Origin: a virus
Virus record (IMG/VR): IMGVR_UViG_3300049491_000197
Coordinates: 1-38,084 of that record
Strand: one strand, 5' to 3'
Length of the DNA: 38,084 nucleotides
A model generated the notes under the pieces. It saw nothing but the letters and a program-made list of their open reading frames with translations. It was not told where the DNA came from and made no database searches. Positions 7,957 through 34,456 of this stretch are shown here, piece by piece. Position numbers and translations under genes: made by a program. Positions within the stretch are counted from its first letter, which is position 1; each line of letters begins with the position of its first letter.

Positions 7957-8807
7957 TGCCCGTTCAACTCAACTACAGCTACCTTCAAACGGCCGCGCTT
8001 GTCGGTAACATCGTCGACTCAGCATGGGCCGATCGGTTTTCGTACGTCAACCCCATGCTGCCGCAAGTCGGCACGCTCACGGTGGGCGGCACTGCGGCTG
8101 ATGGTAACTACACGGTTACCATCACGCCGAACGATGGGGGAACCCCCGTCACCATCACCACGGTTCGGGCGACCACACCCGCAACGAATGCTCTGATTGC
8201 TGCTGATCTCAACACGAAGCTAAACGCTTCGAATGCGCTGCTGGGCGTCTTGAGCTCGGCAAATGCGTCAGCTGTCAACACGCTTACGTTTCGCCGCTCG
8301 GGCCAGGCCTACACGATCACGACCTCGGCCCCATCTGGAGCGACGCTCGTCTGGGCGCAGACTCAGGCGCCTGGCGGCTCGTATGCCCAGGTTGGTCGTT
8401 GGGCTCGCAAGTCGACGGCCGCTGGCGCTGATCGCCTGCTCACTCCTATCATCGATGGCACCACCATCGCGCAGATCGTCGGCGTGGTCGAGCGCACCTT
8501 CTCCTGCATCGATGGTTCGTTCTATGGTCAAACCGGCGAGGTCTATCCTGCCGGTTATGATGTGCCGATTCTCCGCGGAGGTCGAATCTGGATGGTCGCC
8601 TATGAGGCCATGACTCCCGCGGATACCATGTACATTTGGATCGATCCAGCGGCCACCGCTGTCCCTGTTGGCGGCGTGGTGAAGTCTACTGATGGAGGTG
8701 GCCTTGGTGCCTCTGGCGATGCGATCGACGGCTCAACTAAGGGTCGCATCCTCTCAACCGCAGCAGCCGGCCAGCTCGTCGTGATCGAGCCGTTCTTCGG
8801 AGTCTAA
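7956..8807 (+). CDS. DUF2190-like structural cement protein with an inserted beta domain
   Basis: A 283-residue protein between the prohead protease and the major capsid protein, the usual place for a capsid-stabilising cement or decoration protein. The ends fit that family: MPVQLNYSYL at the N-terminus and the PADTMYIWIDP, GRILSTAAAGQLVVIEPFFGV pattern at the C-terminus. Residues ~37-140 do not: they form a separate unit (DGNYTVTITPNDGG...ALIAADLNTKLNA...) that recurs in the neck terminator, sheath and baseplate J proteins. It starts by TAATG overlap. The cement call rests on position and sequence style and is inferred. Confidence 0.7.
   Translation: MPVQLNYSYLQTAALVGNIVDSAWADRFSYVNPMLPQVGTLTVGGTAADGNYTVTITPNDGGTPVTITTVRATTPATNALIAADLNTKLNASNALLGVLSSANASAVNTLTFRRSGQAYTITTSAPSGATLVWAQTQAPGGSYAQVGRWARKSTAAGADRLLTPIIDGTTIAQIVGVVERTFSCIDGSFYGQTGEVYPAGYDVPILRGGRIWMVAYEAMTPADTMYIWIDPAATAVPVGGVVKSTDGGGLGASGDAIDGSTKGRILSTAAAGQLVVIEPFFGV
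8064..8375 (+). repeat. Virion insert domain, copy 1 (in the cement protein)
   Basis: Residues ~37-140 follow the pattern G.Y.VTI, a second strand rich in T and V, a helix beginning ALIAADLNTKLNA, and two or three further beta strands ending near TLVWAQ. The flanking sequence reads as a normal cement protein without it. The same order of elements appears four more times in this window. Confidence 0.6.
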
Positions 8808-8811
8808 GACC

Positions 8812-9834
8812 ATGAGTGCACTCAAATTCAACTACACTCAGGCCATCCGCAAGTCGTTGCGAAATAAGCCCGCTGAGGCTTCAGGTGCCATCCGAAACGA
8901 CGCCGATGCGGCTGTCTTCGAACGTCAGGTCGTGCAGGTTCTTGCGGAGAATTACACCCGCGAGTTCCCCGATCTGACGATGGCCAATGGCGAGGTGATC
9001 CCGATCAACCGATCGATTCGCCCCGGCGTTCTGTCGTACGAGTATTACGTCTACGAACCGGTTGGGTTCGCGAAGATCATGAACTCCTATGCCGACACTG
9101 ACATCCCGAAGGTTGGCGTCAAGGGTTCATTGTCGACGGGCACGATCAAGGAGACTGCGACCTACTACGGTTGGTCCATCAGCGAGATGGAGACCGCGAA
9201 TGAGAGCGGGTTTGCCTTAGAGTCTGCAAGCGCAGAGGCCAATAAGCGCGCGCATCAGCAGCTTTGGAACAAGGTCGGATGGTTCGGCGATGAGGATCAT
9301 GGCCTGAAGGGTCTGCTTACTCATCCGAACATCACACGAGTGCTCGCACCTCTCAACGGCGGCGCAACCTCGCGGCTCTGGTCGGCCAAAACGTTTGACG
9401 AGATCGCAGCGGACTTCGCCACGCTGATCAACACGTCAAAAAACATCACGAACGGCATCGAGCGAGTCACCGATATCTACCTGCCTGGAGATATCTGGGA
9501 CGCCCTTAGTTGGCGCGTACTCTCGACATCCAACGGCTCGAACTACACGATCGGCAACTGGCTGCAGGAGAATGCTCAGCGCCAGGGCGTGACGCTGCAC
9601 TTCGACTACATCCTTTCGGCAGCTAACCATGCCGACGTGGCCGAGTTCGTGGGCCTGAACGTCGCCGTTGCATATAACCGCAACCCATCCAAGGCCGAAC
9701 TCGTAGTGCCGCTGGATTACACGCAATACCCACCCGAGTGGGAGAAGCTCCACTACAACACCTACACGCGCTCGAAGTGCGGCGGTGCACTCGTGCGCTT
9801 CCCCCTCTCGATCGTCGTCATGACGGGAATCTAA
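8812..9834 (+). CDS. Major capsid protein, DUF2184 family
   Basis: The 340-residue product has the DUF2184 layout: an N-terminal helical arm, then PINRSIRPGVLSYEYYVYEPVG, then a spine-helix region around GWSISEMETANESGFALESA and EANKRAHQQLWNKVGWFG, and a C-terminus of VPLDYTQYPPEW. DUF2184 proteins are HK97-fold shell proteins of myoviruses, and this one would be the most abundant virion protein. It has an ATG start four bases after the cement protein stop. The length is normal for the family. No separate maturation site could be fixed by eye. Confidence 0.85.
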   Translation: MSALKFNYTQAIRKSLRNKPAEASGAIRNDADAAVFERQVVQVLAENYTREFPDLTMANGEVIPINRSIRPGVLSYEYYVYEPVGFAKIMNSYADTDIPKVGVKGSLSTGTIKETATYYGWSISEMETANESGFALESASAEANKRAHQQLWNKVGWFGDEDHGLKGLLTHPNITRVLAPLNGGATSRLWSAKTFDEIAADFATLINTSKNITNGIERVTDIYLPGDIWDALSWRVLSTSNGSNYTIGNWLQENAQRQGVTLHFDYILSAANHADVAEFVGLNVAVAYNRNPSKAELVVPLDYTQYPPEWEKLHYNTYTRSKCGGALVRFPLSIVVMTGI

Positions 9835-9835
9835 A

Positions 9836-10267
9836 ATGGCAGAACAAGCGGCAGCAACGGCAGAACGACGAGCCTCGCCAGTAGTGGTGATCAGCTCGCG
9901 CAAAGGAATTTCTCAGTACATTCTCGCCACTCGAGGTAAGCTCGAGGACGGTAGCGAAGGTACAGTCCATGACCCGATTCGACTCATGCCCGGTGCAAAC
10001 CGCATTGAAGCCGATCGATGGAAGGCATTCGCGAAGGAGGTCAAGCCCGACCTGGAGCGCGGCACACTTCGCGTGATGAATAAGGCCTTGAGCGGCTACG
10101 AGGAGCAGGATGCAGTCCAGATCGTGAAGTCGACGATCGACCGTTCGCTGTTAAATGCGTTCCGATCCGTCGATTCGCGCAAAGACGTCCGCAAGGCCAT
10201 CGATCGGCAACTCAAGGATATCGCTGGCAAGGCCACCGAGAACGAGGACGCGGAGCTCGACAACTGA
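9836..10267 (+). CDS. Hypothetical head-region protein (143 aa)
   Basis: A 143-residue charged protein between the capsid and DUF4054 genes, with ATG one base after the capsid stop. A short beta-like N-terminal part (PVVVISSRKGISQYI) is followed by DPIRLMPGANRIEADRWKAF and a lysine/aspartate-rich helical C-terminus. No family is recognised. Its site in the head-tail connector cluster suggests a structural or assembly role. It overlaps the next gene as TGATG. Confidence 0.6.
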   Translation: MAEQAAATAERRASPVVVISSRKGISQYILATRGKLEDGSEGTVHDPIRLMPGANRIEADRWKAFAKEVKPDLERGTLRVMNKALSGYEEQDAVQIVKSTIDRSLLNAFRSVDSRKDVRKAIDRQLKDIAGKATENEDAELDN

Positions 10268-10674
10268 TGCCATTCGCCACCGATGTCGACCTCTTGCTCG
10301 TGTTCCCTGGTCTCTCGACCACGGACCCGGCCTTGCGCGCGCTGATGCTTGAGCAGGCTCAATGCCAGTTCAACGCGTGCGCGTGGGGTTGCTCGCTGTT
10401 GCTCGGGCATGTGTACCTGACGGCTCACATGCTATCGGTTGTAGCGGGCGGCGCGAGCAATGGCGCCGGTGGTGATATCACAAGCAAAACGATGGGACCG
10501 GTGTCGATTGGCTACTCGGCACCCGCGGCTCTGACGAATGGCGGGGCCTTCGGCGATACGGCAGCGGGGCGGCAATACCTCGCGCTTCGCGATGCACTTG
10601 GCCCCATGCCTATGGGCCCCAACGGATTCGACTGCGGTGATTTTTTCGCTGCTGCGGGGTGTGGATGCCCGTGA
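10267..10674 (+). CDS. DUF4054 head-tail adaptor protein
   Basis: The 135-residue product shows the DUF4054 pattern: VFPGLSTTDPALRALMLEQAQ, a central AHMLSVVAGG, then ITSKTMGPVSIGYS, and a C-terminal segment YLALRDALGP. This family gives small helical adaptors that sit under the portal in the neck. The C-terminus is unusually rich in cysteine (CGDFFAAAGCGCP). Its stop overlaps the GTG start of the next gene as GTGA. Confidence 0.75.
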   Translation: MPFATDVDLLLVFPGLSTTDPALRALMLEQAQCQFNACAWGCSLLLGHVYLTAHMLSVVAGGASNGAGGDITSKTMGPVSIGYSAPAALTNGGAFGDTAAGRQYLALRDALGPMPMGPNGFDCGDFFAAAGCGCP

Positions 10675-11168
10675 CGATTCGCGTGAAAAAAAACAATGCG
10701 ATCGAAGCCGAGCTGGCCTACCTGCAGGCACATGAGGTCCGCGTCGGCGTGCTTATGGGTGGTCAGCTGCCTGGCGGTGCCTCTGATGCAACGGCTCCGC
10801 ATGTGGACTCCGGCGGCCTGACGGTGGCCGATGTGTTCTCGTTCCACGAGCTTGGCCGTGGCCACAACCCGAAGCGGAGCTCGATCGTGTGGGTCATGGA
10901 TTTCAAGACTGCCGAAATCGCAGCGATCTCCGACAAGGCGATGCTGGCCGTGATCGACGGCAAGATCTCAGCCAAGCAAGCACTCGGGCTCGTCGGCGAG
11001 AAAATCCTCTCACTGGCTAAGCGCCGCATTAAATCGAAGATCGCCCCGCCGTTGTCCAAATCGCGACTGCGCCAGAAAATGCGCGCGGGCAAGAGCGGCG
11101 AAGTGCCTCTGATTCACACCGGTCAAATGATCAACTCGCTGCGCTGGAACATCATAGGATCGATCTGA
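10671..11168 (+). CDS. Head-tail connector / tail-completion protein of the HK97 gp10-like type
   Basis: The chosen GTG at 10671 overlaps the upstream stop and gives 165 residues; ATG at 10665 or GTG at 10659 would add two to four. The C-terminal part contains LSKSRLRQKMRAG...EVPLIHTGQMINSLRWNII, matching the LIDTG..R.SI pattern of gp10-like connector proteins. The middle holds VRVGVL and FHELGRGHNPKRS, also typical. The family closes the neck between head and tail. It overlaps the next gene as TGATG. Confidence 0.7.
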   Translation: MTIRVKKNNAIEAELAYLQAHEVRVGVLMGGQLPGGASDATAPHVDSGGLTVADVFSFHELGRGHNPKRSSIVWVMDFKTAEIAAISDKAMLAVIDGKISAKQALGLVGEKILSLAKRRIKSKIAPPLSKSRLRQKMRAGKSGEVPLIHTGQMINSLRWNIIGSI

Positions 11169-12244
11169 TGGCAGACCCAGGGCAACCAGACCTCATCGAA
11201 AACGGCTACGTTCTCGGATTCATCACCGAGGCGCAGTTCCGTGCGATGCGGGAGTTTCAGACGTACCAGAACCGTGTCGGTGTTCCCGACACGAAGTCGG
11301 ACGTCAAGACGCGAGCCAACGCCGCCTATCCGCGAGCGGTGCTCGAGGTTCTGGTGCAGCTCAATGAGATCATGGCCGGGAACATCATCGTCCCTGGCAT
11401 TGCGAACGTCTCGGGCAAATCCTGGCGCGATGGCGACGACGGATCGAACATCGTAGAGTCGCTGGACATTGCCGGCTATGGCATCCAGGCGCCCTCGCAG
11501 ATGTGGCTCTTAAATGGCACGACGGGTGCGTACCTTGGCGGCAACGCATTGGTCAGCACCGACCCAGCACGTGACCTGTACGCGATCGTCAACGCTCGCG
11601 GCGGAATCAACGGTGAGAGCAGATTCGTCTATGGCGGTCGATCGATCTACGGCTTGCAGTACCACTCGGCAGCGAACATCTCTGGCATCGGCCAAACGAT
11701 GGCATTCGCGGCATTCGTTCACGTCAGCGAGTGGAATGAGTCACCTGATGGTATCATTATCGCTAGCCATCGCGCTTATGATCGCGCCGATGAGACGGGT
11801 GCATCGTACCGTTTGGGGTTCGAGCTCGGACTAGGCTACACCAGCGTAACCGCAACGCCAGACGAGCTGGCTTTGTACTACCGCCATTATAATGGCACCG
11901 ACGTCGAAGTTGTTAGGTTCCCCGTCACTGGCGGTTCTGGTCACATTGCCCTGCCGATGGGCCGCGAGATGTTCGTCGCATTCACGCGCACGGCATCAAC
12001 GCTAAATTTCTATGTCAACGGCCTCCTGCTGGGCTCGGCCACGTTTAGCGCGGGCAATGAGCCTTCGCCTGGTACCGCCCCCGAAATGCGCCTAATGCTC
12101 GGCGGTCAGTGGGACGGCTCGCGCTACCTCCACGGGAGCATGCGCAACGTCGCGGTCTGGACAGGCGTCCAGCCCAGCGCGGCACACTTGCTGAATTACT
12201 ATCGCATCGGTGCGGGATTCTTGCCGAAGGCGATCCCCGCATGA
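11168..12244 (+). CDS. LamG-like (concanavalin A fold) lectin domain protein in the connector cluster
   Basis: A 358-residue protein. The C-terminal ~200 residues fit a LamG/concanavalin-type jelly roll: TMAFAAFVHVSEW, IIIASHRA, REMFVAFTRTASTLNFYVNG, then MLGGQWDGSRYLHGSMRNVAVW and a closing helix PSAAHLLNYYRIG. The N-terminal ~100 residues are mostly helical and unrecognised and may anchor it to the virion. Such domains bind carbohydrate. It is flanked on both sides by neck genes, with TGATG upstream and ATGA downstream, so it is co-expressed with head-tail proteins. A head or neck whisker that binds cell surface or mucus glycans is a reasonable inference. Confidence 0.7.
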   Translation: MADPGQPDLIENGYVLGFITEAQFRAMREFQTYQNRVGVPDTKSDVKTRANAAYPRAVLEVLVQLNEIMAGNIIVPGIANVSGKSWRDGDDGSNIVESLDIAGYGIQAPSQMWLLNGTTGAYLGGNALVSTDPARDLYAIVNARGGINGESRFVYGGRSIYGLQYHSAANISGIGQTMAFAAFVHVSEWNESPDGIIIASHRAYDRADETGASYRLGFELGLGYTSVTATPDELALYYRHYNGTDVEVVRFPVTGGSGHIALPMGREMFVAFTRTASTLNFYVNGLLLGSATFSAGNEPSPGTAPEMRLMLGGQWDGSRYLHGSMRNVAVWTGVQPSAAHLLNYYRIGAGFLPKAIPA

Positions 12245-12624
12245 TCGATTTTTCAGATCTGCAGGGCGTGGTCAATGATTTCGCCGAGAGCGTTCCACTG
12301 GTCGTGAATCGACCTGGGCTCGTGACCGTTCCGTCAGGGTCAACCCGGCCAGTGAGTGGCGACCTGGTGCCCGTCACGGGCGTTGTGGGTTCCTGCTGGC
12401 CTGTCTCTGGCAAATCCCTGGAACTTCTCGACGGGATTGGCCAGCGCCTCACCGAGGCGATCGACGTATTCACGCCGTTCGACGAGCTCATGCTTGCCGA
12501 TGACGAAACCAAGCAGCCCGGCGATCAGATCACCTGGCACGACAAAATCTACGAGGTCATCGTGCGGCACGATTGGATTCGCGGCCCGCTTTGGCATTAC
12601 ATCGCGCGGAAGGTGCGGTCATGA
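12241..12624 (+). CDS. Head-tail joining / neck protein (127 aa)
   Basis: ATG 12241 overlaps the lectin stop as ATGA; the longer upstream reading is a shadow of the lectin gene. The product begins MIDFSDLQGVVNDFAESVPL and ends GPLWHYIARKVRS. Its place between a gp10-like connector and the neck terminator, its length and its beta-rich middle (GDQITWHDKIYEVI) fit small head-completion proteins. A specific family is not certain. It overlaps the next gene by ATGA. Confidence 0.6.
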   Translation: MIDFSDLQGVVNDFAESVPLVVNRPGLVTVPSGSTRPVSGDLVPVTGVVGSCWPVSGKSLELLDGIGQRLTEAIDVFTPFDELMLADDETKQPGDQITWHDKIYEVIVRHDWIRGPLWHYIARKVRS

Positions 12625-13424
12625 GACGCGGGATTAACCGTCCGCAGATCGAGGCGCTCTTGCGTGAGGCAGTCATTCGCCTGACGGGGTTCCCATCGGA
12701 CAACGTGTTTTTCAGCGAGCACGCTGTCGACACTGCAGCCTGCTCTCGACCCTGCGTCTCGATGACGCTGATGCCGTACGAGACCCAGCAGAAAAACGGC
12801 ACGACCGAATGGCTGCCCTCACTGGAGCTCTGGTACCTCGAAATCACCAGCGACGTGGACGGCACGTACTCCGCGACCATCGACGGCACCACGTTCTCGT
12901 TCGTCGCCCTGGCGAACACGATTGCCGAGATCCGCGACGGCCTACTGGCAGAGATTGTCGGTGGCGCGGATCCAGACTACATTGCGACGAGCGGCGGGGT
13001 TGCGACGATCATCATCGATTCGGAAACACCGGGCCGCATGTTGATCGTCTCGGGTAGCGCTGGCGTGTCCGCGTCGCTCATGCGCAGCAACGCGCTCAAG
13101 CTTTCGTCCCGCCCGACCGAGCTACGCCTGCGCATTGAATGCGTTGGGTTTTTTGAATCGCCGGCGACAACCGAGATGACCGGGGTCGATATCGCCGAGC
13201 GCCTGCAGGTCTCTCTGCTGGACGTCGACGAGACGCTCGAGCTTCGCGATGCAAACGCCTACATCACGCTTGTCCGCACCACGGATGAGCGCCAGATCGT
13301 CGCCGGGCGGCAAGAGACAATCGGCGTGATCGATGCTATTTTGGGGACCTCAAGTCTGCACGTCGGCACGCGCGTCGGCTCAGGTCGCTCCGCCACCGTA
13401 ACACTCACCGAGAGGACTCCATGA
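12621..13424 (+). CDS. Neck/tail terminator protein (gp12-like, LIC_12616 type) with an inserted beta domain
   Basis: The start ATG at 12621 overlaps the preceding stop as ATGA and gives 267 residues. The N-terminus (INRPQIEALLREAVIRLTG) and C-terminus (LRIECVGF, DIAERLQVSLL, IGVIDAILGTS) match phage neck-terminator proteins that cap the tail tube before it joins the head. Residues ~77-156 are an extra unit starting DVDGTYSATIDGTTFSFVA and resembling the inserts in the cement, sheath and J proteins. The stop is one base before the sheath start. Confidence 0.65.
   Translation: MRRGINRPQIEALLREAVIRLTGFPSDNVFFSEHAVDTAACSRPCVSMTLMPYETQQKNGTTEWLPSLELWYLEITSDVDGTYSATIDGTTFSFVALANTIAEIRDGLLAEIVGGADPDYIATSGGVATIIIDSETPGRMLIVSGSAGVSASLMRSNALKLSSRPTELRLRIECVGFFESPATTEMTGVDIAERLQVSLLDVDETLELRDANAYITLVRTTDERQIVAGRQETIGVIDAILGTSSLHVGTRVGSGRSATVTLTERTP
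12849..13088 (+). repeat. Virion insert domain, copy 2 (in the neck terminator)
   Basis: Residues ~77-156: GTYSATIDGTTFSFVALANT, a helix IAEIRDGLLAEI, then VATIIIDSETPGRMLIVSGS. The order of strand, strand, helix, strands matches the other copies, and the conserved start is D/G-G-x-Y followed by alternating hydrophobics. Confidence 0.6.
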
Positions 13425-13425
13425 C

Positions 13426-15087
13426 ATGCCGCAAAGCGATCTAGTTACCGTCAACGTAGCGCTACGACCGGCCAATGCGGCACGCCCAGCATTCGGCACG
13501 TCGTTGCTCCTCCACAACCTCACCGACGCGCAAGATGCCCTGATGGGATCGAGTCGGACGTCGCTGCTCACTGCCGCGACCTGGCCAGCAGATCTCGCCG
13601 CACTCAGCATCACCGACGGCGAGGCAGCCTATGAGTCGGTGCAGTCGCATTTCTCGCAGCCACGCAAGCCGACTAAGGCGTACCTTGGCCGACGCGGGAA
13701 AAACATCCAGCAGGTCTGGACAGTCGTCGTTCCCACGGTGCCGGCTGATGGTGTCTATGCGATTTCGGTCACGGGAGCGACCGGGACTCCCTACTCTTTC
13801 ACCGCCAGCACAAGCACTCAGGCCGCGGTTCGAACGGCCCTCTTGGCTGCGCTGGCTGCCGGCTCAGCGACCTTCACCGCCGCGTCTGGTGTCGGCGCGG
13901 GCGACATCAAGCTCACGGCCGTCACCTCTGGCGTGCCGCTCGTCGTGCAGGTCTCATCGCCAGCAGCGAGCATGACCGCATCCGTCACGACGGGCACTTC
14001 GGTGCTCACCGTCGCGCAGGTATGGGACATGCACATCGTGACCGCGGCCCTTGGCGTTTACACGCTGACGGTCCAAACGACCACGGGCCAGAAAACCTAC
14101 ACGCACATCGCCACGACCGGCGCGACGGTGACGACGATCCGAAATGCCATCAAGGCGCTCTACGATGCAGATTCTTCGGATCTGTTCACTGCAACGATGG
14201 CCTCGGTGTCAACCGATCACGGCACGCTGACCGCTTCGCTCGCGGGTCGATCCGGCAGCGTGACGATCACCTCGCCGGCCAGCGATGCAACGGCCACCGT
14301 GACGACTGCGAACTACGGGGTCGCCGACGATTGGGCCGTGATGGCAACTTCGAACACCGATTGGTACCACGGCGTGCTCGGCTCGAAGGTCGCCGCAGAA
14401 CTCCTGTTGTCCGAAGAATGGTTTCGCGGCGACGACCGCCACATGCTTGGGCTGCAGTCCAGCGACGCGGACATTCTCACCACCGTCACGACCGACGTGT
14501 TCTCGAAGCTTAAGGCTCGCGCATCGTATCGCGTCTACGGCGTGCAGCATCACATCGATGCTGAGGGCATCGTCGAGGCATGGGCTGGCGACGTGCTCAC
14601 CGACCCTGCTGGCTCCGTATCCTGGCCCTGGAAACAGCTGACTGGCTTTACCGATCGCGTCCTAGAGGCCGACGAGGCCGCAGCTCTGCGCTCAAAAGAA
14701 GGATCGTTCCTCGAAGACTTCGCCGCCCGCGATCAGTCGATCATGAACGGCGGCTACTCGTTCGCCGGTCGACCCATCGACATCGCACGCGCCTTGGACA
14801 CCCTGCGATCGAACATGGAGGTCGCGGTAGCGGACTTGTTCATCGGATCCCGCATTGTCCCGTACTCAAAGCAAGGACAGTCGGCGATCGAGGGTGTCCT
14901 CTGGAAGGAGATCGCCGGCGGCGTTGAGGCTGGATACGCCATCGATGGCTCGTTCACGATCGAGTTCGACGACATCACACCAGGCACCAACGATGCAGTT
15001 CGTGGGATTTACCCTGACTTCGATGTGACTGGCGTCATCCAAGCCGGCGGCTACAAGGTCATCGTCAACATGGAGCTCTCGCAATAA
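13426..15087 (+). CDS. Contractile tail sheath protein, DUF3383 type
   Basis: The 553-residue product matches the DUF3383 sheath family at both ends. The N-terminus has VTVNVALRP, GTSLLLHNL and a segment EAAYESVQSHFSQPRKPTKA. The C-terminal half has FRGDDRHMLGLQSSDADILTT, WAGDVLTDPAGSVSWPWKQL, IMNGGYSFAGRPIDIARALD, and the ending YPDFDVTGVIQAGGYKVIVN. The sheath contracts to drive the tube into the cell, so its presence defines a myovirus. Two consecutive beta units (residues ~106-188 and ~203-298) are inserted between the N-terminal and core domains and would face outward. It overlaps the tube gene as TAATG. Confidence 0.9.
   Translation: MPQSDLVTVNVALRPANAARPAFGTSLLLHNLTDAQDALMGSSRTSLLTAATWPADLAALSITDGEAAYESVQSHFSQPRKPTKAYLGRRGKNIQQVWTVVVPTVPADGVYAISVTGATGTPYSFTASTSTQAAVRTALLAALAAGSATFTAASGVGAGDIKLTAVTSGVPLVVQVSSPAASMTASVTTGTSVLTVAQVWDMHIVTAALGVYTLTVQTTTGQKTYTHIATTGATVTTIRNAIKALYDADSSDLFTATMASVSTDHGTLTASLAGRSGSVTITSPASDATATVTTANYGVADDWAVMATSNTDWYHGVLGSKVAAELLLSEEWFRGDDRHMLGLQSSDADILTTVTTDVFSKLKARASYRVYGVQHHIDAEGIVEAWAGDVLTDPAGSVSWPWKQLTGFTDRVLEADEAAALRSKEGSFLEDFAARDQSIMNGGYSFAGRPIDIARALDTLRSNMEVAVADLFIGSRIVPYSKQGQSAIEGVLWKEIAGGVEAGYAIDGSFTIEFDDITPGTNDAVRGIYPDFDVTGVIQAGGYKVIVNMELSQ
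13741..14319 (+). repeat. Virion insert domain, copies 3 and 4 (tandem, in the tail sheath)
   Basis: Copy 3 (13741-13989): ADGVYAISVTGATGTPYSFT, helix AAVRTALLAALAAG, then IKLTAVTSGVPLVVQV. Copy 4 (14032-14319): ALGVYTLTVQTTTGQKTYTH, helix TTIRNAIKALYDA, then GTLTASLAGRSGSVTITSP. Both have the G-x-Y entry, two strands, one helix and two further strands. They lie side by side, so a duplication within the sheath followed an insertion, or two insertions occurred. Confidence 0.7.
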
Positions 15088-15587
15088 TGTCCAATCAAGC
15101 AACTGTTGACCCAGGCCTCTGCACGATCAACATCGCGGGCCATACCCTGACGGGGTTTGCTGATGGCGTCGGCTATCAGTCGTCGTTCGACGTCGATCGC
15201 TACGGCAAGGTCGTGGGCAATCGGGGCCTCGGCGCATTCTCGAAGACGATCAGCGCGGCCGCAACGATCACACTGACGCTTCTGAACACCTCGTCCGACA
15301 ACGATATCCTATCCGAGATCGCCCTGGCTGATAACGTCGGCGGCGGTGTCCTCGTGCCACTGGCGAAAATCACCGCGAACGCTCGCATCGTTGAGACTGG
15401 CGCCGTACGAATCGTGAAAATACCGGACACGCAAGACGGTGCAGGTCCCTACCCTGTTGTCTGGACGCTCGCGTCATTGAACTTCGTGAAGTTCGTCGGC
15501 GGTTACGAAGAGACACCGACCTTCACGAACATGGACGACCTGCGCGAGCTCATCAGCCAGGCTCCGCCCGTCCGCGCCCCCGTCTAA
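15087..15587 (+). CDS. Tail tube protein, DUF3277 type
   Basis: The 166-residue product fits DUF3277: DPGLCTINIAGHTLTGFADG, then DVDRYGKVVGNRGLGAFSKTIS, ITLTLLNTSSDNDIL and FVKFVGGYEETPTFTN. These proteins stack into the inner tube within the sheath. It directly follows the sheath gene with a TAATG overlap, the usual sheath-tube order. The length is normal. Confidence 0.85.
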   Translation: MSNQATVDPGLCTINIAGHTLTGFADGVGYQSSFDVDRYGKVVGNRGLGAFSKTISAAATITLTLLNTSSDNDILSEIALADNVGGGVLVPLAKITANARIVETGAVRIVKIPDTQDGAGPYPVVWTLASLNFVKFVGGYEETPTFTNMDDLRELISQAPPVRAPV

Positions 15588-15611
15588 CCGTTACCGTGGC
15601 AGGCAAGCACC

Positions 15612-16211
15612 ATGACCCCGAAAAAACTCATCCCCAAATTCTCCACACCAACCGAGCAGACGCGAGAGATCGACGGCCAACTAGTCACGGTTCGCCGCTT
15701 GCCTGCCAGTCTAGCGCCTGATGTGCTGTCGCGTTTGCTCGGTGATGCTGGGGCCGTTGTCGTTGAGATGCTATCCAGTCCGGATCGTGAGCTTGATCCT
15801 GCAGTCGAGGGCGTCATTCGCTCGATGGTTGCAGGCAAGACCGATGCCGGCAGTGGCATTGACATGACGGTGACGATCATCAAGTCGATCGTGTTTTCGA
15901 ATGCGATCTCTAAGGTGAAGGATTTCGATTTCGCGTGGTACGTGCTTCGCATGCTCCCGGGATGCATGTCGATCGGCGGGGTTTCGATCGAAACGATGGC
16001 CGAGCTTGACGAGTCAGGAATCTCCCCGCGGACGATTTTCGAAGTGTTCAGGTTCGCCTGCGAGGTGAATTTTTTCCCTACTTCCGCCGACCGCGTTATC
16101 AACGGTGGATCCACCGACAAGACGCGGCCGGCAATGACCGCAAACCCGATCCGCGGCAAATCGAGCTTGCGCGGCGCAACCAGCAAGGCTGGCCCGTCGG
16201 CCCAAATATAA
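15612..16211 (+). CDS. Tail assembly chaperone, short (unshifted) form
   Basis: This 199-residue product sits between tube and tape measure, the place of the gpG-type tail chaperone that coats the tape measure during tail assembly. The first ~155 residues are well-formed (EIDGQLVTVRRLPASLAPDVLSRLL, FDFAWYVLRMLPG). After codon 155 the zero frame continues for only 44 residues of low-complexity Ser/Thr/Lys sequence. A -1 shift at 16070-16076 gives a longer and more protein-like end (see the extended form). No strong Shine-Dalgarno is seen before ATG 15612; the gap from the tube gene is 24 bases. Confidence 0.75.
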   Translation: MTPKKLIPKFSTPTEQTREIDGQLVTVRRLPASLAPDVLSRLLGDAGAVVVEMLSSPDRELDPAVEGVIRSMVAGKTDAGSGIDMTVTIIKSIVFSNAISKVKDFDFAWYVLRMLPGCMSIGGVSIETMAELDESGISPRTIFEVFRFACEVNFFPTSADRVINGGSTDKTRPAMTANPIRGKSSLRGATSKAGPSAQI

Positions 16212-16390
16212 CCTGGTTGGTCTGGCGGCCAATCATGGAGCAGAAGGCAACGCACGACGATATGGATAAGCGGGATCTCTATTGGCTGCTCGACCTGAAC
16301 GAGGCGATCGATGTCTGGCAGGACACGAACGACCTTGATTCAACCGCGCCAATCCCTGCTGGATACACTGGCACTTCGTTCGTGAGGTAA
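15612..16390 (+). CDS. Tail assembly chaperone, predicted -1 frameshift (extended) form
   Basis: If ribosomes slip back one base on TTTTTTC at 16070-16076, translation continues in the -1 frame to TAA 16388-16390 and gives 259 residues. The -1 extension (104 codons) is open throughout and reads as real protein: RQIELARRNQQGWPVGPN, WLVWRPIMEQKATHDDM, DLYWLLDLNEAIDVWQDTN. It ends one base before the tape-measure start. This copies the G/GT arrangement known in lambda and many other tailed phages, where the T part binds the tape measure. The alternative is an independent 51-residue gene from ATG 16235 without a good ribosome-binding site. Confidence 0.7.
16070..16127 (+). promoter_or_regulatory. 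Predicted -1 ribosomal frameshift signal (slippery site plus stem-loop)
   Basis: In the zero frame the codons are AAT TTT TTC, so the heptamer T TTT TTC (16070-16076) has the canonical X XXY YYZ form. Fourteen bases after it, CCGCGT (16091-16096) can pair with ACGCGG (16122-16127), enclosing the inner hairpin CGGTG GATC CACCG (16103-16116). Such a structure could pause the ribosome. The 14-base spacing is longer than the common 5-9, so the role of the stem-loop is less certain than the slip site. Confidence 0.7.
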
Positions 16391-16391
16391 C

Positions 16392-18257
16392 ATGAGTACC
16401 CTGCGCGAAGTCTTCGTCAACTGGCAGATCAAGAGCAATCTCGCGGCCGAGATGAAAAAACTCGACGCCGCCATTGAGGAGACGTCGGATGAGTTCAAGG
16501 ACCTTGCTGACGAAGCTGAGAAGTCCGCCAAAGAGACGGCCGACCAATGGGGCAAGGTCGGCGACAAGGCCAAGGACGTCGGCGGAAAGATAGCCGCAGG
16601 CATAGGAATCGGCGTCGCCGCCCTGGTGGGGGCCGGCGTTGCTGCCGGCGCATTCGTGACGCAATGGGCTCAGGGGGCGACTGAGATTGAATCCACGGCT
16701 AAGCGCATCGGCATCTCAGCGCAGTCCCTGCAGGAGTGGGAATACGCCGCGAGGGCCACGGGTGGCGAAGCTGAGGGTATCGCAGGGATCTTCAAGGAGC
16801 TGAACAACCGACTTGCCGAGGTTGGTGAGACAGGCACCGGATCGGCCGCGGATGCACTGACGCTCCTGAAGCTTCGCGTTGAAGACCTGCGACGGCTCAA
16901 GCCAGAGCAGCAGATGGAGGCGATCGCCGACAGATTGTCGATGATCTCTGACGTGGGCGCGCGAACGTTCATCAAGGACTCGTTGTTCGGTGGCGAGTAC
17001 GAGAAAATCGGCTCGCTGCTCGAGCAAGGCTCGGCCGGCATCGCAACGCTTCGGCAAGAGGCGCAGTCGCTTGGCGGGGTCCTTGATGGCAAGGCACTCG
17101 AAGGCGCGAAGAATTTCAACCGTGAGCTCGTCAAGACCGACGCGATCCTCGAGGGCGTAAAATCAACTGTCGGTCAGGCAGTCGTGCCAGTCTTCGGCGA
17201 TCTCGTGCGTCGGTTTGGTGAGCTCGTCAGCCGTAATCGCGAGCTGATTGCCACCAGGGCGGAGGAGTGGGCGCAGCGGTTGTCGCGGTGGATCGAGCAG
17301 CTCGCCCCGCTGATCGGCAAAGTTGTCGATGCCACGGCAAAGTTTGTCGACGAGCTCGGCGGCATTGAGCCCGCACTCAAGATCGCTGCGGGAGGTTGGC
17401 TGGTGTGGCAGGCCGCTGGCCTGGCTGCGATTGGTACTGTTGGCGCAGCACTGGCGGTGTTTACGGCCACATTCGCGGCAGGTATGGCGATCGCTGGTGC
17501 CTTGAAGCCCGAGGACAGCCCCGAGCTGCAGCGCATGAAGGCGGGACAGGCGAAAATCCGCCAGTACTCGCAGCACGTTGACGAGTTCGCTAACGACACG
17601 TCTCTGAATGGCCAGATCGCGCGCAAGAACTTCGAGCTCGGGATGATGCGGCTCGAGCAAAATCCATTCGATTCGAAGGCCGAGTCGCAGGTAAAGGCTG
17701 CGATCGGCGAGTTTGAGCGGATAAAATTCGCTCGCGCCAATGCGCCGGCTGGCGAAGTCGGGAACTTGGACCTCGGCAAGATCGCCAAGCCAGGCGCCGA
17801 GAAACCGCTGACGACCGAATTGCTCCTCAAAGAGCAACGCAAGCAAGACGCGGAGCTCGACAAGCTTCGCAAGATTCGCACCGACCTCGAGGCGCGTCGC
17901 ATGAACGCGCAGGGTACCGATCGGCTCACGATCGAGCGAACACTTGCGGACGTGAACAAGCGCCTCACTGGCCAGGATGTGCAGACGCCAGAGCAGCTGA
18001 TCGCTGGCCTGATGGGACAAGGAACGAATCTCGGCGCCGGCGCACTGCGGCCTGCGGGGCTCGGCACGTCGATCAACCAGATCGATGCGCGAGTGATTTT
18101 CAACGTGGGCGGTATCGACGTCGAGATCCCAGCGTCGGCGATTTCAGCTGGCGACCCACGGGCTTCAGGCCAGGGCTTTGGCGAGGGCATCGCTTCGCAA
18201 CTCAGCGCCTGGATAGGCCAAGCATTCCAGCTCCAGAGGGCGCAAATCAATGGCTGA
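16392..18257 (+). CDS. Tail tape measure protein
   Basis: A 621-residue protein immediately after the tail chaperone, with GAGG just before the ATG. Residues ~15-55 are strongly coiled-coil (MKKLDAAIEETSDEFKDLAD). A hydrophobic segment at ~72-90 (AAGIGIGVAALVGAGVAAGA) and a larger one at ~330-375 are the membrane-active segments usual in this family. The region around GISAQSLQEWEYAARATGG is a common tape-measure pattern. Helical, charged repeats fill the C-terminal half. The protein sets tail length and later helps DNA enter the cell. At this length the tail should be short to medium. It overlaps the next gene by 8 bases. Confidence 0.9.
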   Translation: MSTLREVFVNWQIKSNLAAEMKKLDAAIEETSDEFKDLADEAEKSAKETADQWGKVGDKAKDVGGKIAAGIGIGVAALVGAGVAAGAFVTQWAQGATEIESTAKRIGISAQSLQEWEYAARATGGEAEGIAGIFKELNNRLAEVGETGTGSAADALTLLKLRVEDLRRLKPEQQMEAIADRLSMISDVGARTFIKDSLFGGEYEKIGSLLEQGSAGIATLRQEAQSLGGVLDGKALEGAKNFNRELVKTDAILEGVKSTVGQAVVPVFGDLVRRFGELVSRNRELIATRAEEWAQRLSRWIEQLAPLIGKVVDATAKFVDELGGIEPALKIAAGGWLVWQAAGLAAIGTVGAALAVFTATFAAGMAIAGALKPEDSPELQRMKAGQAKIRQYSQHVDEFANDTSLNGQIARKNFELGMMRLEQNPFDSKAESQVKAAIGEFERIKFARANAPAGEVGNLDLGKIAKPGAEKPLTTELLLKEQRKQDAELDKLRKIRTDLEARRMNAQGTDRLTIERTLADVNKRLTGQDVQTPEQLIAGLMGQGTNLGAGALRPAGLGTSINQIDARVIFNVGGIDVEIPASAISAGDPRASGQGFGEGIASQLSAWIGQAFQLQRAQING

Positions 18258-18783
18258 TGCGGTCCAGTCCATCCTGCGGTTCACCGCCGCCCGTCCGAAA
18301 ATCGGCGATATCGTGCTGAACTGCACGACACGCGAGGTTCATGGCGCAGAGTTTGAGATCGCAAGCTCACCGATCGAAGACGGCGCACGGCTGTCTGACC
18401 ATCGCATTGAGCTGCAGCGGACGCTGGACATGGAGGCGATTATTTCGCCGTTCCCGGATAACATCGTTGACCAGTTCCGCGGCGAAGGGCTGAGCCTGAA
18501 GCTCAACGGCGAGGACTACTACCGCGTCGCATGGGCCCGCATCCGCTCGCTCGCATCGTCGAATGAAACGTTTGAGGTCATCACGGACCGCGAGGTCTAT
18601 CCGTCGATGACGTTCGAGTCGTACCTTCAGACCGAACAGAACGAAGGGATGATTCGCCTGCAAGCACGGCTAAAGCAGGTCCAGTTTGCGACCACGATGC
18701 GCGAGCGCTTCCTTGCGCCGAACTTCGCCGATGTCGGCGGCGCGTCGGCAGACGTTGGCCTGCAAGGGTTGGCCCCGCTATGA
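18250..18783 (+). CDS. Dit-like / baseplate-proximal tail protein (177 aa)
   Basis: Product of 177 residues following the tape measure. The opening SILRFTAARPKIGDIVLNC and the segment VSxH-like LSDHRIELQRTLDMEAIISPFP resemble the N-terminal domain of Dit-like tail proteins in KPP10-like phages, which form a ring at the tube tip. The C-terminus is short and Gly-rich. It overlaps the next gene by ATGA. The family call is from memory of the pattern and is moderate. Confidence 0.6.
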   Translation: MADAVQSILRFTAARPKIGDIVLNCTTREVHGAEFEIASSPIEDGARLSDHRIELQRTLDMEAIISPFPDNIVDQFRGEGLSLKLNGEDYYRVAWARIRSLASSNETFEVITDREVYPSMTFESYLQTEQNEGMIRLQARLKQVQFATTMRERFLAPNFADVGGASADVGLQGLAPL

Positions 18784-19160
18784 GCGCCTGGCGGCTCAAG
18801 GGCCCCGAGCAGTCGCTTGCCCCGGTCGTATCCTGGCGCTCGCGGCTCGAAGGCGTCGTTTATCGATTCAAGCTTTCGTATCGCAAGCGTTACGACTGTT
18901 GGGATCTGCAGGTGGCCACCGCAACCGGCGAAATCGTGATCGATGGCATCCGCGTCACTGAGGGTTACCCGCTGTTGGCAGCCTGGACTGATGCCCGACT
19001 TCCGCCAGGAACGCTCACTTGCATCGACTCGCAAAACCTTGGCGCCGAGCCGACTCGCAACGACTGGCGCGAGCGTCACTACCTTCGCTATGACGATTTC
19101 GTAGCGACTACCGTCGACAACGAGCTTTCGGTCGTGCCCGAGGAGCCACCGCCCGCATGA
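18780..19160 (+). CDS. Baseplate plug-like protein (126 aa)
   Basis: The 126-residue product has the pattern of a small beta barrel: LEGVVYRFKLSYRKRYDCWDLQVATATGEIVIDGIRVTEG in sense order, i.e. a strand, an aromatic W and a G-I-V turn, followed by PGTLTCIDSQN. This resembles the plug protein of the cyanophage Pam3 baseplate and the related small proteins of other myoviruses. It lies between the Dit-like and hub genes with ATGA overlaps on both sides, so a baseplate role is well supported; the exact family is inferred. Confidence 0.6.
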   Translation: MSAWRLKGPEQSLAPVVSWRSRLEGVVYRFKLSYRKRYDCWDLQVATATGEIVIDGIRVTEGYPLLAAWTDARLPPGTLTCIDSQNLGAEPTRNDWRERHYLRYDDFVATTVDNELSVVPEEPPPA

Positions 19161-20125
19161 GGATTGGCCAGCGTCGAATCGCGGTCCGGCTGCTCACTGA
19201 GGGCAATGAGACGATTTCGATCAACGAGCCAGGCGCCGACATCGGCAACACCCAGCTCGAAGTCGATATTTCGGTGAACATGAGCGTGAACCCGCAGGCC
19301 AATTCGGCGGCAGTGCGCATCATGAATCTCTCGAGATCGACGCGGCAATCGATCGCCGGGAGAATCAAGCGCAACCTCGACATCTCGCAAGCTGTCATCG
19401 ACCTACCTGTTGACTACACGTCGGTGATCGAAAACTCGATCGTGCAGCAGACGGTGACGCGGCGGGGCGATTGCTATGTCGAAGTCGATGCGGGATACGA
19501 CAGCGCTGTCCCGCGAGTATTCGAGGGGTCGTCGCAATATGCTCGCCACACGAAGATCGGCCCGACATGGGTCACTGAGCTGCAAGTCGGCGACGGGTTG
19601 TCGACCATGATGGCCGGCGTCGCGAAGCGGACATTTCCACCAGGCTCGCTATTTCTCGACGTGTTGCGCCATGTCGTGCGATCGATGGCTCTGGACGATT
19701 CCGTGCTACGGACGCCATTACAGCTCACGGATGCGATCGGCCGCGGAAACACCACCTTCGCGTATGGGGTGACGGCGTTTGGCGACGCGCGATGGTTCGT
19801 CTCGAATATGCTCGAGCCGTTCGGAGCCGAGTGGTTCGTCGATAGGGGGCAGTTTTTCGTGGTCCGCAAGGGCCACGCTTTGCCAGAGCCCGCCGTGACG
19901 ACCGATTTTGCCTCTGGGCTGCTCCACACCCCCGAGCCCATCGAGGATGGTGGGGTTCGGATTCGGTCGATGTTCCGCAGTGACATCCGCATCGGTCGAC
20001 CAATCATCGTTTCCGGTGTAGATTATGAAGGCGAGTACCGAGCAGACAGCGTGATGCACCGCATGAACAACCGCTACGGCGAGGCCATCACTGAAGCGAT
20101 CCTCATGCCCATCGAGGTGACCTGA
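19157..20125 (+). CDS. Baseplate hub protein (gp27/gpD-like)
   Basis: The 322-residue product sits just upstream of the spike gene, where the hub normally lies. It begins with a beta domain (RIAVRLLTEGNETISINEP, TQLEVDISVNMSVNPQANSAAVRIMNLS), continues with VFEGSSQYARHTKIGPTWVTELQVGDG, and has FGAEWFVDRGQFFVVRKG in the second half. That order (NxxxVxIxNLS, then a second barrel with W...DGxFxVxxxG) is usual for hub proteins that carry the spike. It overlaps both neighbours. Confidence 0.75.
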   Translation: MRIGQRRIAVRLLTEGNETISINEPGADIGNTQLEVDISVNMSVNPQANSAAVRIMNLSRSTRQSIAGRIKRNLDISQAVIDLPVDYTSVIENSIVQQTVTRRGDCYVEVDAGYDSAVPRVFEGSSQYARHTKIGPTWVTELQVGDGLSTMMAGVAKRTFPPGSLFLDVLRHVVRSMALDDSVLRTPLQLTDAIGRGNTTFAYGVTAFGDARWFVSNMLEPFGAEWFVDRGQFFVVRKGHALPEPAVTTDFASGLLHTPEPIEDGGVRIRSMFRSDIRIGRPIIVSGVDYEGEYRADSVMHRMNNRYGEAITEAILMPIEVT

Positions 20126-20889
20126 TGGATCCGTCGCAGATGTCACCCGACCAGGCATTGTCGGCCCTGCTCGATGAGACCGCGCGGCGCATCGCCGTGG
20201 AGATCCGCACGCATGTCCCGGGTACGATCGTCTCGTACTCAAGGGCGACTGGCCGCGCCGAGGCGAGCGTGCGGGTCGACATGAAAGCACGCATGCGCAA
20301 TGGCCAGACGTTCCCGATCGGCCAGGTCGACCGCTGCCCCGTGCTCTGGCCGGCTGGCGGCGGCTGGTGCCACGACGCCGATCTTTCGCCGGGCGATGAA
20401 GTATGCGTCGTTGTTTTCGATCGCGACATCTCGGAGTGGCTCGAGAGTGGCGGCGAGGCCGATCCGCTGTCGGGAAACCTGCACTCGATTTCGAATGCTG
20501 CAGTACTCGCGGTTTCCCTGCGGTCGAAACCGAAAGTTGGCGGCGCCGATCCGGGGGCAGGCGCATTTTACCTTGGTCGCGAAGACGGCTCGGCGCCCTG
20601 GATGCGGCTCAAGACGTTGCCAACACCGAGTGCGGTCCTGGAGGCCCCGGCGATTTCGCTGGGAGATGGGGCGACGCTTGGGATCGCGCGGATCACCGAC
20701 GCCGTCTCTGCGGCCGCGAATGGAGCCACTCTGCTCACTGCCATCACCGCAGCACTCACGGCCATCACGGCCATCCCAGCCAATGCAGCCGCAGCAGCCG
20801 CCGCGGCAACGGCTGCAACTGCTCTATCCGCTGGCCTGACGGGTCTCGGCGTTATCTCTGGAGCATCCACGGTGAGCAAATCCCTATGA
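20125..20889 (+). CDS. Gp138-like membrane-puncturing spike protein
   Basis: A 254-residue protein whose first ~145 residues match the Gp138 N-terminal OB-fold domain: IAVEIRTHVPGTIVSYSRATGRAEASV, PVLWPAGGGWCHDADLSPGDEVCVVVFDRDI and W.E.GG. Next comes a beta-strand-rich part (AVLEAPAISLGDG) that may build the needle, and then an Ala-rich helical C-terminus around residues 215-245. Spike proteins trimerise at the baseplate centre and pierce the outer membrane, which points to a Gram-negative host. The Ala-rich tail is unusual for a spike tip. It overlaps the gp25-like gene by ATGA. Confidence 0.85.
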   Translation: MDPSQMSPDQALSALLDETARRIAVEIRTHVPGTIVSYSRATGRAEASVRVDMKARMRNGQTFPIGQVDRCPVLWPAGGGWCHDADLSPGDEVCVVVFDRDISEWLESGGEADPLSGNLHSISNAAVLAVSLRSKPKVGGADPGAGAFYLGREDGSAPWMRLKTLPTPSAVLEAPAISLGDGATLGIARITDAVSAAANGATLLTAITAALTAITAIPANAAAAAAAATAATALSAGLTGLGVISGASTVSKSL

Positions 20890-21284
20890 GCGTGTTCCGC
20901 CTCACCGCCGACAGCGACCTCTATCGTCCTGCGGGAGCATCGACGTTCGAGCGAGTCTCTGATGCTGACCAAGGTTCCCAGCATCTACGCACGCGTCTGC
21001 GCCTATTCACCCGCGAGGTTTTTCGCGATCAACGCATCGGCGTGCAGTTCTTCGAAATCGTTGCGCAGCCCGGTTTTTCGCCGGCAGCGGTGGCCAATCA
21101 CATCGCCAGCGTTGCACTTGGAACCCCCGGCGTCGTCGACTGTCAACTGACCTACTCGTTCGAGCCGGTGCGCGCCGTTGTCACGATTGACGCAACTGCA
21201 GTGTTCCAGCTTGAAGACCAGAAGACTCGAGTGCCGATCCACGAGACTCTGCAGATTTCACTTGGCGGGAGCATCCAAACCTGA
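20886..21284 (+). CDS. Baseplate wedge protein, gp25/GpW-like
   Basis: ATG 20886 overlaps the spike stop as ATGA and gives 132 residues; the longer frame upstream is a shadow of the spike gene. The sequence QGSQHLRTRLRLFTREVFRDQRIGVQFFEIV, then SFEPVRAVVTIDATAVFQLED, resembles gp25-like proteins (loading of the first baseplate wedge and sheath start). It is followed immediately by the J-like gene, the normal order. It overlaps that gene as TGATG. Confidence 0.75.
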   Translation: MSVFRLTADSDLYRPAGASTFERVSDADQGSQHLRTRLRLFTREVFRDQRIGVQFFEIVAQPGFSPAAVANHIASVALGTPGVVDCQLTYSFEPVRAVVTIDATAVFQLEDQKTRVPIHETLQISLGGSIQT

Positions 21285-22714
21285 TGGCCACCGGATACAC
21301 ACCACCACGCTACGAGGACATCCGCGCGGCCGTCGTGGCCAAATGGAAATTGAAGTATGGCGCCAACGCGGACACATCGAGCGACATTGTCGATGGGATG
21401 TTCATCGACATCCAAGGTGAGATGGCGCAGACGGGCTACGATGGCACGGCTGAATTTTATAATCAGCACAACATCGGCACTGCGACGGGGTTGAATGTCG
21501 ATGCTATCCTCGCGCCGTTATTCGGGATCACCCGGCTCGCTGCCACGAAATCAAACTGCGAGGTTTGGCTCTACGGCACGGTGGGAACGATCATACCCGC
21601 CCTATCACCCGTCTCAACGGTCGATACCGGTGCCGCCTTCGAAACGCGCGATCTGGTCACGATCGCAGCGAGCACGAGAGCCGTCTTCACGTTCCCGACT
21701 CTGAATACACCGACGACCATCAACGTGACGATCGGCGCGGGCACGACGACCGTAGTCGGGGTGTCTGGCACGCCCGCTGAAGTCGCGGCCGATGTTGCGG
21801 CCGCACTGTTTGCGAACGCGAATGTGGTGGTCGCCTACGATGCTGGTGTCCAGCCTGATGGCCAGGGTATTGTGCTCGTCGAGATGAGCGCGCTGTGGAC
21901 GTTCTCGACGGATGTTGGTAGCTCCTGGGATGTGACGTCGGGATTCGCAATCGCCGTCGATACCGGGCCGATTCGGGCATCCTATGGGACGCTGACTCGC
22001 GCGGGCGTTGTCCTGGCCGGGTGGGCTGGGCTCGTGAACGTTATCGATGCCACCCTTGGCACCCGTGAGGAGACGACAGGCGCATATAAAACCCGCCATG
22101 CCGCCGCGGTGAACGGCCGGGCATTCGCTACGCCGCGAGGCCTGGCGCAGCGGCTGGTCGCCCTGGGGGTTAGCGCAGTGAAAATCTACCAGAACACCTC
22201 AGGCGTGGAGGTCGATGGCCGCCCATCGCATTCGTTCGAGGCTGTTGTCGATGGCGGCGATCAAGATGAAATCGTCGAGACGATCTGGCTCTGCCACACA
22301 ACTGGCACTCCATCATTTGGCACCGAATCGCTGACCGTCGTGGATGATCAAGGCTTGGTCGTTCAGCCGCGCACGATTCGATTTTCGCGGCCGAACTATC
22401 GCTACATCCACATGCAAGTAACTATCGTCCGGGGCGAAGGGTTCCCGCTGCTGCCCTTGACGGACATTCAGGCCTTAGTGTCGCAGGCTCTGGAGACCTG
22501 GGGCAACGCGCTTGGCATCGGGCGAGACGTTTACATTTTCGAAATCGGTGCGAAGATTGGCTCGGTTCTCACCGGGATCGCATCGCTCGCCATCCTCCTC
22601 GCATCAACACCTACGCCCACCGGAAGTCCGTCCTACGGGGCGGTTGACTTGATCATGGATGACCTTGACTATTCTCGCTGGGCGGCCACCAGGATTTCGG
22701 TGAGTATCGTATGA
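21284..22714 (+). CDS. Baseplate J-like wedge protein with an inserted beta domain
   Basis: A 476-residue protein with the baseplate J layout: YEDIRAAVVAKWKLKYGANADTSSDIVDG, a long helix, LDAILAPLFGITRLAATKS-like sequence near residue 75-90, ETTGAYKTRHAAAVNG, and a C-terminal beta domain. These proteins form the wedges that open on contraction. Residues ~136-220 (TFPTLNTPTTINVTIGAG..., helix AEVAADVAAALFANANVVV) are extra relative to a plain J protein and have the shape of the inserts in the sheath and cement proteins. It overlaps the next gene by ATGA. Confidence 0.85.
   Translation: MATGYTPPRYEDIRAAVVAKWKLKYGANADTSSDIVDGMFIDIQGEMAQTGYDGTAEFYNQHNIGTATGLNVDAILAPLFGITRLAATKSNCEVWLYGTVGTIIPALSPVSTVDTGAAFETRDLVTIAASTRAVFTFPTLNTPTTINVTIGAGTTTVVGVSGTPAEVAADVAAALFANANVVVAYDAGVQPDGQGIVLVEMSALWTFSTDVGSSWDVTSGFAIAVDTGPIRASYGTLTRAGVVLAGWAGLVNVIDATLGTREETTGAYKTRHAAAVNGRAFATPRGLAQRLVALGVSAVKIYQNTSGVEVDGRPSHSFEAVVDGGDQDEIVETIWLCHTTGTPSFGTESLTVVDDQGLVVQPRTIRFSRPNYRYIHMQVTIVRGEGFPLLPLTDIQALVSQALETWGNALGIGRDVYIFEIGAKIGSVLTGIASLAILLASTPTPTGSPSYGAVDLIMDDLDYSRWAATRISVSIV
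21689..21943 (+). repeat. Virion insert domain, copy 5 (in the baseplate J protein)
   Basis: Residues ~136-220: INVTIGAGTTTVVGVSGT, helix AEVAADVAAALFAN, then VVVAYDAGVQ and IVLVEMSALWTFST. The entry is less conserved than in copies 1-4 (no G-x-Y), so this is the weakest member. The rest of the strand-strand-helix-strand order agrees. Confidence 0.4.
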
Positions 22715-34332: not shown

Positions 34333-34347
34333 GCTTGCCTTGTGACT

Positions 34348-34365
34348 GCCCCGTTTCGCCGGGGC
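34348..34365. promoter_or_regulatory. 6-bp GC hairpin in the leader of the vWA gene
   Basis: GCCCCG at 34348-34353 pairs with CGGGGC at 34360-34365 around a 6-base loop, 16 bases before the vWA start on the minus strand. No T-run follows in either direction, so it is not a standard terminator. It may control translation or stabilise processed mRNA. The gap 34333-34456 otherwise holds nothing recognisable. Confidence 0.4.
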
Positions 34366-34456
34366 CACGCGTTCGGGGAGCTATCGTGCCCCTGCCGCTT
34401 GCCGAGTCAAGTGACCTGGTGGTCTACACGGTGTGAGTGTGTCGTAGCTGGGGAGA

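Follow-up and report, generated by a model that had tools for sequence, protein, structure and literature searches.

The virion proteins of the phage analysed here contain four segments of a common plan, one in the capsid cement protein, one in the neck protein and two in tandem in the tail sheath protein, and we have high confidence in the identity and mutual kinship of these four. They probably all represent a single accessory virion domain, the extension domain of sheaths of the DUF3383 type, which is doubled in tandem in the sheath and has related copies in the cement and neck proteins. A fifth segment, in the J-like baseplate wedge protein, is a resident domain of the J family, and its kinship with the set is something that we infer.

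Five units in the virion genes of one phage

The window, that is, the whole stretch of DNA analysed, is the virus record IMGVR_UViG_3300049491_000197 (38,084 bases), which carries in one run the genes for head, neck, tail and baseplate of a phage with a contractile tail. An earlier note had reported one recurring beta-rich unit in four of its virion proteins, and the translations place the five segments where that note had put them (cement, neck, sheath twice, J); these segments and their host genes lie on the + strand.

Copy 1 (8064..8375, residues 37-140), supported by AlphaFold2, VIA and hhalign, belongs to a protein of 283 aa (7956..8807) that is recognized as capsid cement by its match to PF22758 (Phage_cement, the family of E217 gp24/Pam3 gp6; 31.6 bits, curated cutoff 27), by a match to phrog_563 and by the gene order protease, cement, MCP; its counterpart in the relative G002, introduced below, matches PF22758 with 39.7 bits at the same cutoff of 27. 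Copy 2 (12837..13094, residues ~74-159), supported by an external-only HMM, hhalign and Smith-Waterman alignment, lies in a neck or tail-completion protein of 267 aa (12621..13424), which has no family match and is named so because its gene stands immediately upstream of the sheath gene, as in the comparator phages. The sheath protein itself (553 aa, 13426..15087) is of the DUF3383 type, matching phrog_205 (1.4e-40) and PF11863 (48.5 bits, cutoff 34.9), and houses both copy 3 (13711..14007, residues 96-194; hhalign, Smith-Waterman) and copy 4 (14014..14325, residues 197-300; hhalign, identity to the relative). Copy 5 (21674..21946, residues ~131-221) is part of a J-like wedge protein of 476 aa (21284..22714) that matches phrog_6 over residues 3-441 (5e-34). 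Inside the neck gene cluster, positions 11168-12244 encode a Laminin_G_3 or concanavalin-like protein (PF13385, 3.8e-8) with a homologue in G002 that is 52% identical.

Sequence kinship of the copies

Pairwise Smith-Waterman alignments, scored against composition-preserving shuffles, connect copies 2 and 3 (z 9.5), 3 and 4 (8.0), 1 and 3 (5.0) and 1 and 4 (3.3), and yield z of at most 1.8 for copy 5 against every other copy. With the sheath as the query, a translated search of the window finds the neck copy (E 2.9e-5). The strongest test is an HMM built of 21 non-redundant copies, all taken from sheath or J proteins of phages outside this lineage, and searched against the 651 ORFs obtained by six-frame translation of the window and of the colinear relative G002. 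At i-E < 5, seven proteins were retrieved, all of them the expected ones and all at the expected places: two necks, two sheaths, two cements and the J protein of the window. The E-values were 4.9e-5 for the neck, 0.02-0.1 for the sheath and 0.18-3.8 for the cement, so that, outside the neck, the individual values are modest and it is the ranking that carries the weight of this sequence-level test.

In profile-profile comparison by hhalign, copies 1, 2, 3 and 4 matched the external profile with probabilities of 82%, 92%, 77% and 65%, respectively. Among the copies themselves, the pairs 1-3, 2-3 and 3-4 reached 89-97% (93% for 3-4), and the remaining pairs of copies 1-4 gave 3-39%; since these remaining direct links are weak, the set is held together by copy 3. 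All 54 control comparisons, made with segments from elsewhere in these proteins, stayed at or below 1.8%, a range that includes copy 5 (1.2%). The common ancestry that the earlier note had extended to all five units is thus upheld by z-scores, external HMM and hhalign for copies 1-4, and finds no such backing for copy 5 (z ≤ 1.8, 1.2%). In a phylogenetic tree, copies 1-4 cluster with weak support (87/35), most copies pair with their G002 counterparts (support 99-100) with the exception of copy 3, the placement of which is not resolved, and copy 5 groups with a J domain.

The copies have in common an entry motif (QVWTVVVP / QVGTLTVG / LWYLEITS) and a richness in Ala, Thr and Ser. Profile searches revealed no further copies in other proteins of the window, and there are no long DNA repeats between the copies. 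No Pfam model spans the module, and a Pfam search with 15 copies at E 0.05 returned no model of the Ig superfamily or of a binding family; a match of copy 1 to PF05354 (Phage_attach; 5e-4, 21.1 bits against a curated cutoff of 26) was set aside as chance.

Inserted and resident units

Comparison with named phages, including phiEt88, AAM37, MII_001, Brigit and ctsHD2, indicates which of the units are additions to their host proteins. The matching comparator cements are of 165-177 aa and have no unit, as against 283 aa in the window, and removal of the module from the window cement raises its z against two module-free cements from 3.3 to 10.0 and from 2.4 to 6.4. The comparator sheaths are mostly of 427-447 aa with one unit each, which is the norm of the family, and the Brigit sheath (374 aa) has none, whereas the window sheath has two in tandem; removal of either one increases the score against the single-unit ctsHD2 sheath from 245 to 287 or 320. 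In comparison with insert-free homologues, the cement copy and the second sheath copy hence behave as insertions.

The neck proteins sampled from the comparators have no unit; six of the seven are of 179-192 aa (226 in Brigit), the window neck being some 85 aa longer than most. The empty-site test was pairwise here, with comparators too diverged for significant family kinship (the neck without its module shows a weak likeness to the ctsHD2 neck, hhalign E 0.017 over 107 columns), and it is gene order and length alone that make the neck copy likely to be an extra unit. For copies 1-4 as a set, insertion character is supported by the cuts in cement and sheath.

The J protein presents a different picture. 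In phiEt88, AAM37, MII_001 and Brigit, the J protein has the length of the window's J and contains a unit at the site of copy 5, with which the J domains of other phages align in register; because other J proteins of equal length have the unit there, copy 5 is to be regarded as a resident J-family domain. Accordingly, the description of the units as extra, put forward in the earlier note for all five, applies to the cement copy and to one of the two sheath copies, probably to the neck copy, and has to be withdrawn for copy 5, which aligns as an integral part of its own family, part of what the note itself had said would speak against its reading. Extra domains of J-like wedge proteins, perhaps at the place of copy 5, are known as the pin domain of E217 gp44 and Mu BW2 and as the insertion domain of A-1(L) gp31, where they contact the hub, the tail tip or a fibre; the gp31 domain lies at 81-180. 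In ctsHD2, the J protein (L005 18291-19640) seems to have a different small domain at the module site of other J proteins, and therefore the J site looks modular.

Predicted fold of the module

The cement protein was modelled with AlphaFold2 using the module rows as the alignment; because this alignment presupposed kinship, the model of copy 1 is not fully independent of it. Residues 37-140 were predicted with pLDDT mostly of 71-96 as three strands, a central helix of 14 residues (78-91) and four strands, and the cement core in the same model was poor (pLDDT below 50). In VIA-align comparisons, copy 1 was closest to the sheath of A-1(L) (8kee_C, 91-186; Z 12.9, rmsd 1.9, 94 residues), followed among sheaths by PhiTE (11.9), Mu (11.5), Milano (8foy 89-205; 11.0) and E217 (7.1), so that the fold is met, over most of the length of copy 1, in solved sheath outer domains. 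High scores were also obtained with the nozzles of P-SCSP1u (11.4) and Kp7 (10.9), with T4 gp11 (10.5) and with the Bas63 baseplate chain 133-228 (10.4), and lower ones (Z 7-10) with domains of flagellin, FliD and LPMO. As judged from this model, the fold of copy 1 is the known sheath extension fold, which faces outwards in solved phage sheaths.

A match to the T7 nozzle (residues 148-247) was first read as a fibre dock, a reading that was dropped as the description in the T7 paper fits the nozzle tip, a domain with one helix and a DALI match to T4 gp11 (PMC6702177). The T7-type nozzle tip and T4 gp11, the mutual likeness of which is already published (PMC6702177), have the same fold as copy 1 but are integral domains of other proteins; among these proteins, only the P-SCSP1u nozzle gave a weak sequence match (E 0.005).

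For copy 5, a low-confidence model computed from J-family rows only gave Z of 4-6.6 to the same kinds of fold, including J-like baseplate chains at the equivalent place; the Z to the PhiTE baseplate chain 137-240 was 6.2. Its membership in the fold family of the other copies is weakly shown by this prediction.

The module in other phages and the age of its spread

A search with the terminase led to the relative G002 (IMGVR_UViG_3300048837_000263), the virion genes of which are colinear with those of the window, mostly at 37-67% identity. This relative, about 50% identical, has all five units at the same places, and, as each copy is retained there, the spread of the module must be old. The identities between window and G002 inside and outside the unit are 54/50% for cement, 47/37% for neck, 71/48% for sheath and 37/48% for J. 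Copy 4 is the most conserved of the sheath stretches measured, being 81% identical to G002 in amino acids and only 57% identical at the third positions of conserved codons; this discrepancy indicates strong purifying selection rather than recent exchange and, as far as the sequences can tell, argues for a structural role of copy 4 in the sheath. Recent mobility or duplication at the DNA level is ruled out by the lack of long DNA repeats and by the presence of all copies in the relative.

Scans of genome contigs found no relatives, and the sheath alignment of seven distant phages offered no stretch conserved enough for a scan of the collection. The viral contig L020 is nearly identical to G002 (most virion proteins 97-100%), the tape measure proteins being 81% identical (L020 5511-7409, G002 20668-22554). 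A neck protein with the module was met in the window, G002 and L020 only, and single-sequence searches of phages, with the sheath tandem, the neck and the G002 cement as queries, gave no match.

When eleven whole records were searched with the module profile, each proved to have one or two copies. In those with genes inspected, the copies belong to the sheath, to J or to both; Planktothrix phage PaV-LD is the exception, with its copies in two other proteins. One of these, ORF072R (276 aa), resembles the window cement in family (phrog_563), in its place, with a protease-like gene on one side and the MCP (PF09950) on the other, and in the insertion site of its module. Aphanizomenon phage CL131 has a homologue, gp039, which is 32% identical over module and core and is encoded beside the annotated MCP. 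The cements of these two cyanophages, with the module at this site, form an independent case. The module of ORF072R is nearer to sheath copy 3 of the window (z 10.3) than to copy 1 in the cement (z 0.2), a pattern that suggests exchange between sheath and cement among phages; since the modules in the cements of the window and PaV-LD are not each other's closest, there may have been more than one gain of a cement copy. With a profile of the neck and sheath copies of the window lineage, the cements of PaV-LD, the window, G002 and CL131 rank next after the profile's own members. The word mobile, used in the earlier note, is thus apt for movement between virion proteins over evolutionary time, as seen in the z of 10.3, and not for anything recent, G002 having the complete set.

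The second module protein of PaV-LD, ORF056L (L067 2514-3170), is small and encoded on the other strand near the terminase, and it has a homologue in CL131 (MG209611 8119-8727). In Erwinia phage phiEa104, the likely sheath (L066 2848-4207) is annotated as two fragments, P104_00560 and P104_00570, with the module in the first.

Possible origin and role of the module

The most probable scenario is as follows. The accessory domain, of some 85-105 residues arranged as three strands, a helix and four strands, is doubled in tandem in the sheath of the window lineage, related copies reside in the neck protein and in the cement protein, there between the N-terminal arm and the first strand, and the J protein would retain an older copy of its own. 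Being passive and self-contained, the domain could be inserted into surface loops such that each host core was still able to assemble. The copies would then clothe sheath, neck and head in a further outer layer, in which they touch neighbouring subunits; in the sheath, where the module would form this layer, the conservation of copy 4 suggests contacts between subunits. The E217 cement forms trimers at the threefold and quasi-threefold axes of the capsid (PMC10329688), and therefore the head would present the cement module in many copies. Packing and contact may well be the main role, a suggestion for which we find nearly as much to say as against; weak contacts with cell-surface material might be added to it. 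More tentatively, one could imagine a non-Ig domain family that moves among sheath, cement and neck across kinds of phages and that makes up, in this lineage, a particle-wide layer of contact and adhesion.

Sheaths offer the closest precedents. Residues 91-203 of Milano gp20 are an external sheath extension domain (SED), linked to the neighbouring subunit by a disulfide that must break upon contraction (PMC10811340), and domain III of the Mu sheath extends outwards and diverges between phages (PMC11915804). These two domains and domain A of the E217 sheath have the same fold at the same place in the sheath chain, each sheath having one copy, whereas the window phage has the tandem pair along with the related cement and neck copies.

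The best-known promiscuous domains displayed by phages are Ig-like, reportedly from the work of Fraser et al. in 2006, and Ig-like domains are beta-sandwiches without a central helix of the module's kind. The Ig-like domains on the MCP and tail tube of phage Douge likewise represent one promiscuous domain type on several virion proteins; the module differs from them in the central helix of its model and in having no Ig-type family match. They also provide an argument for a rival view, in which the modules would form a particle-wide array of weak adhesins for cell-surface glycans or mucus, keeping the phage near cells by multivalency. The Douge domains, displayed on capsid and tail, bind mycobacterial glycans when expressed alone (PMC13033339), which makes the proposal of the earlier note, contact with cells or mucus, a fair rival; moreover, in related phages the proteins that house the copies are exposed on the particle (PMC10329688), and the lectin-like gene of LamG type belongs to the same cluster. 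Nevertheless, this view seems rather unlikely, as there is no match to a binding family, the solved homes of the fold are sheath outer domains, wedge domains of J and nozzle tips, the first two being mainly structural, and copy 4 is the most conserved of the parts measured where a host-facing adhesin might be the most variable.

A less probable view is that a common arrangement of strands round a helix was captured independently by each protein from different sources, the likeness then being one of fold and of Ala/Thr-rich composition. Such an arrangement is indeed widespread, as the flagellin, FliD and LPMO matches testify, the modules are rich in the residues in question, and the cement modules of the window and PaV-LD are not mutually closest; yet neither the composition-preserving shuffles nor the 54 control profile comparisons reproduce the likeness, and the entry motif is common to the copies. 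That all five segments are ordinary domains of the families in which they occur, with no spread at all, is very improbable and, for the cement and the second sheath copy, largely refuted: it holds for J and one sheath copy and could appeal to the module-bearing cements of PaV-LD and CL131, but module-free cements and a module-free sheath exist, and alignments of both proteins improve when the module is removed.

Under the preferred reading, in which one accessory domain recurs in several virion proteins, the fold itself is a known one, and the novelty lies in a set that is related by sequence and distributed over head, neck and tail of a single phage. A survey of the open-access literature, which was not exhaustive, yielded no account of one sequence family common to cement, neck and sheath. 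Here, a non-Ig fold that is common in sheaths and baseplates recurs, as the sequences show, in three virion proteins of a single phage (cement, neck and sheath) and in cyanophage cements. This provides a defined family for tracing the transfer of a domain from one virion protein to another, as well as natural insertion sites that tolerate a domain of 100 residues, one of them in a capsid cement and seen in two lineages. Should the copies bind cell-surface material, this would explain a particle-wide contact layer.

Elsewhere in the window, positions 5381-6805 encode a protein that weakly resembles the second domain of the major tropism determinant Mtd (23.0 bits against a cutoff of 24.6), adjoined by a protein with DUF5907 repeats (3183-5384). 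A protein that resembles von Willebrand A by eye (FIFLIDVSGSMA) is encoded at 33745-34368 on the - strand, amid genes of replication/recombination type.
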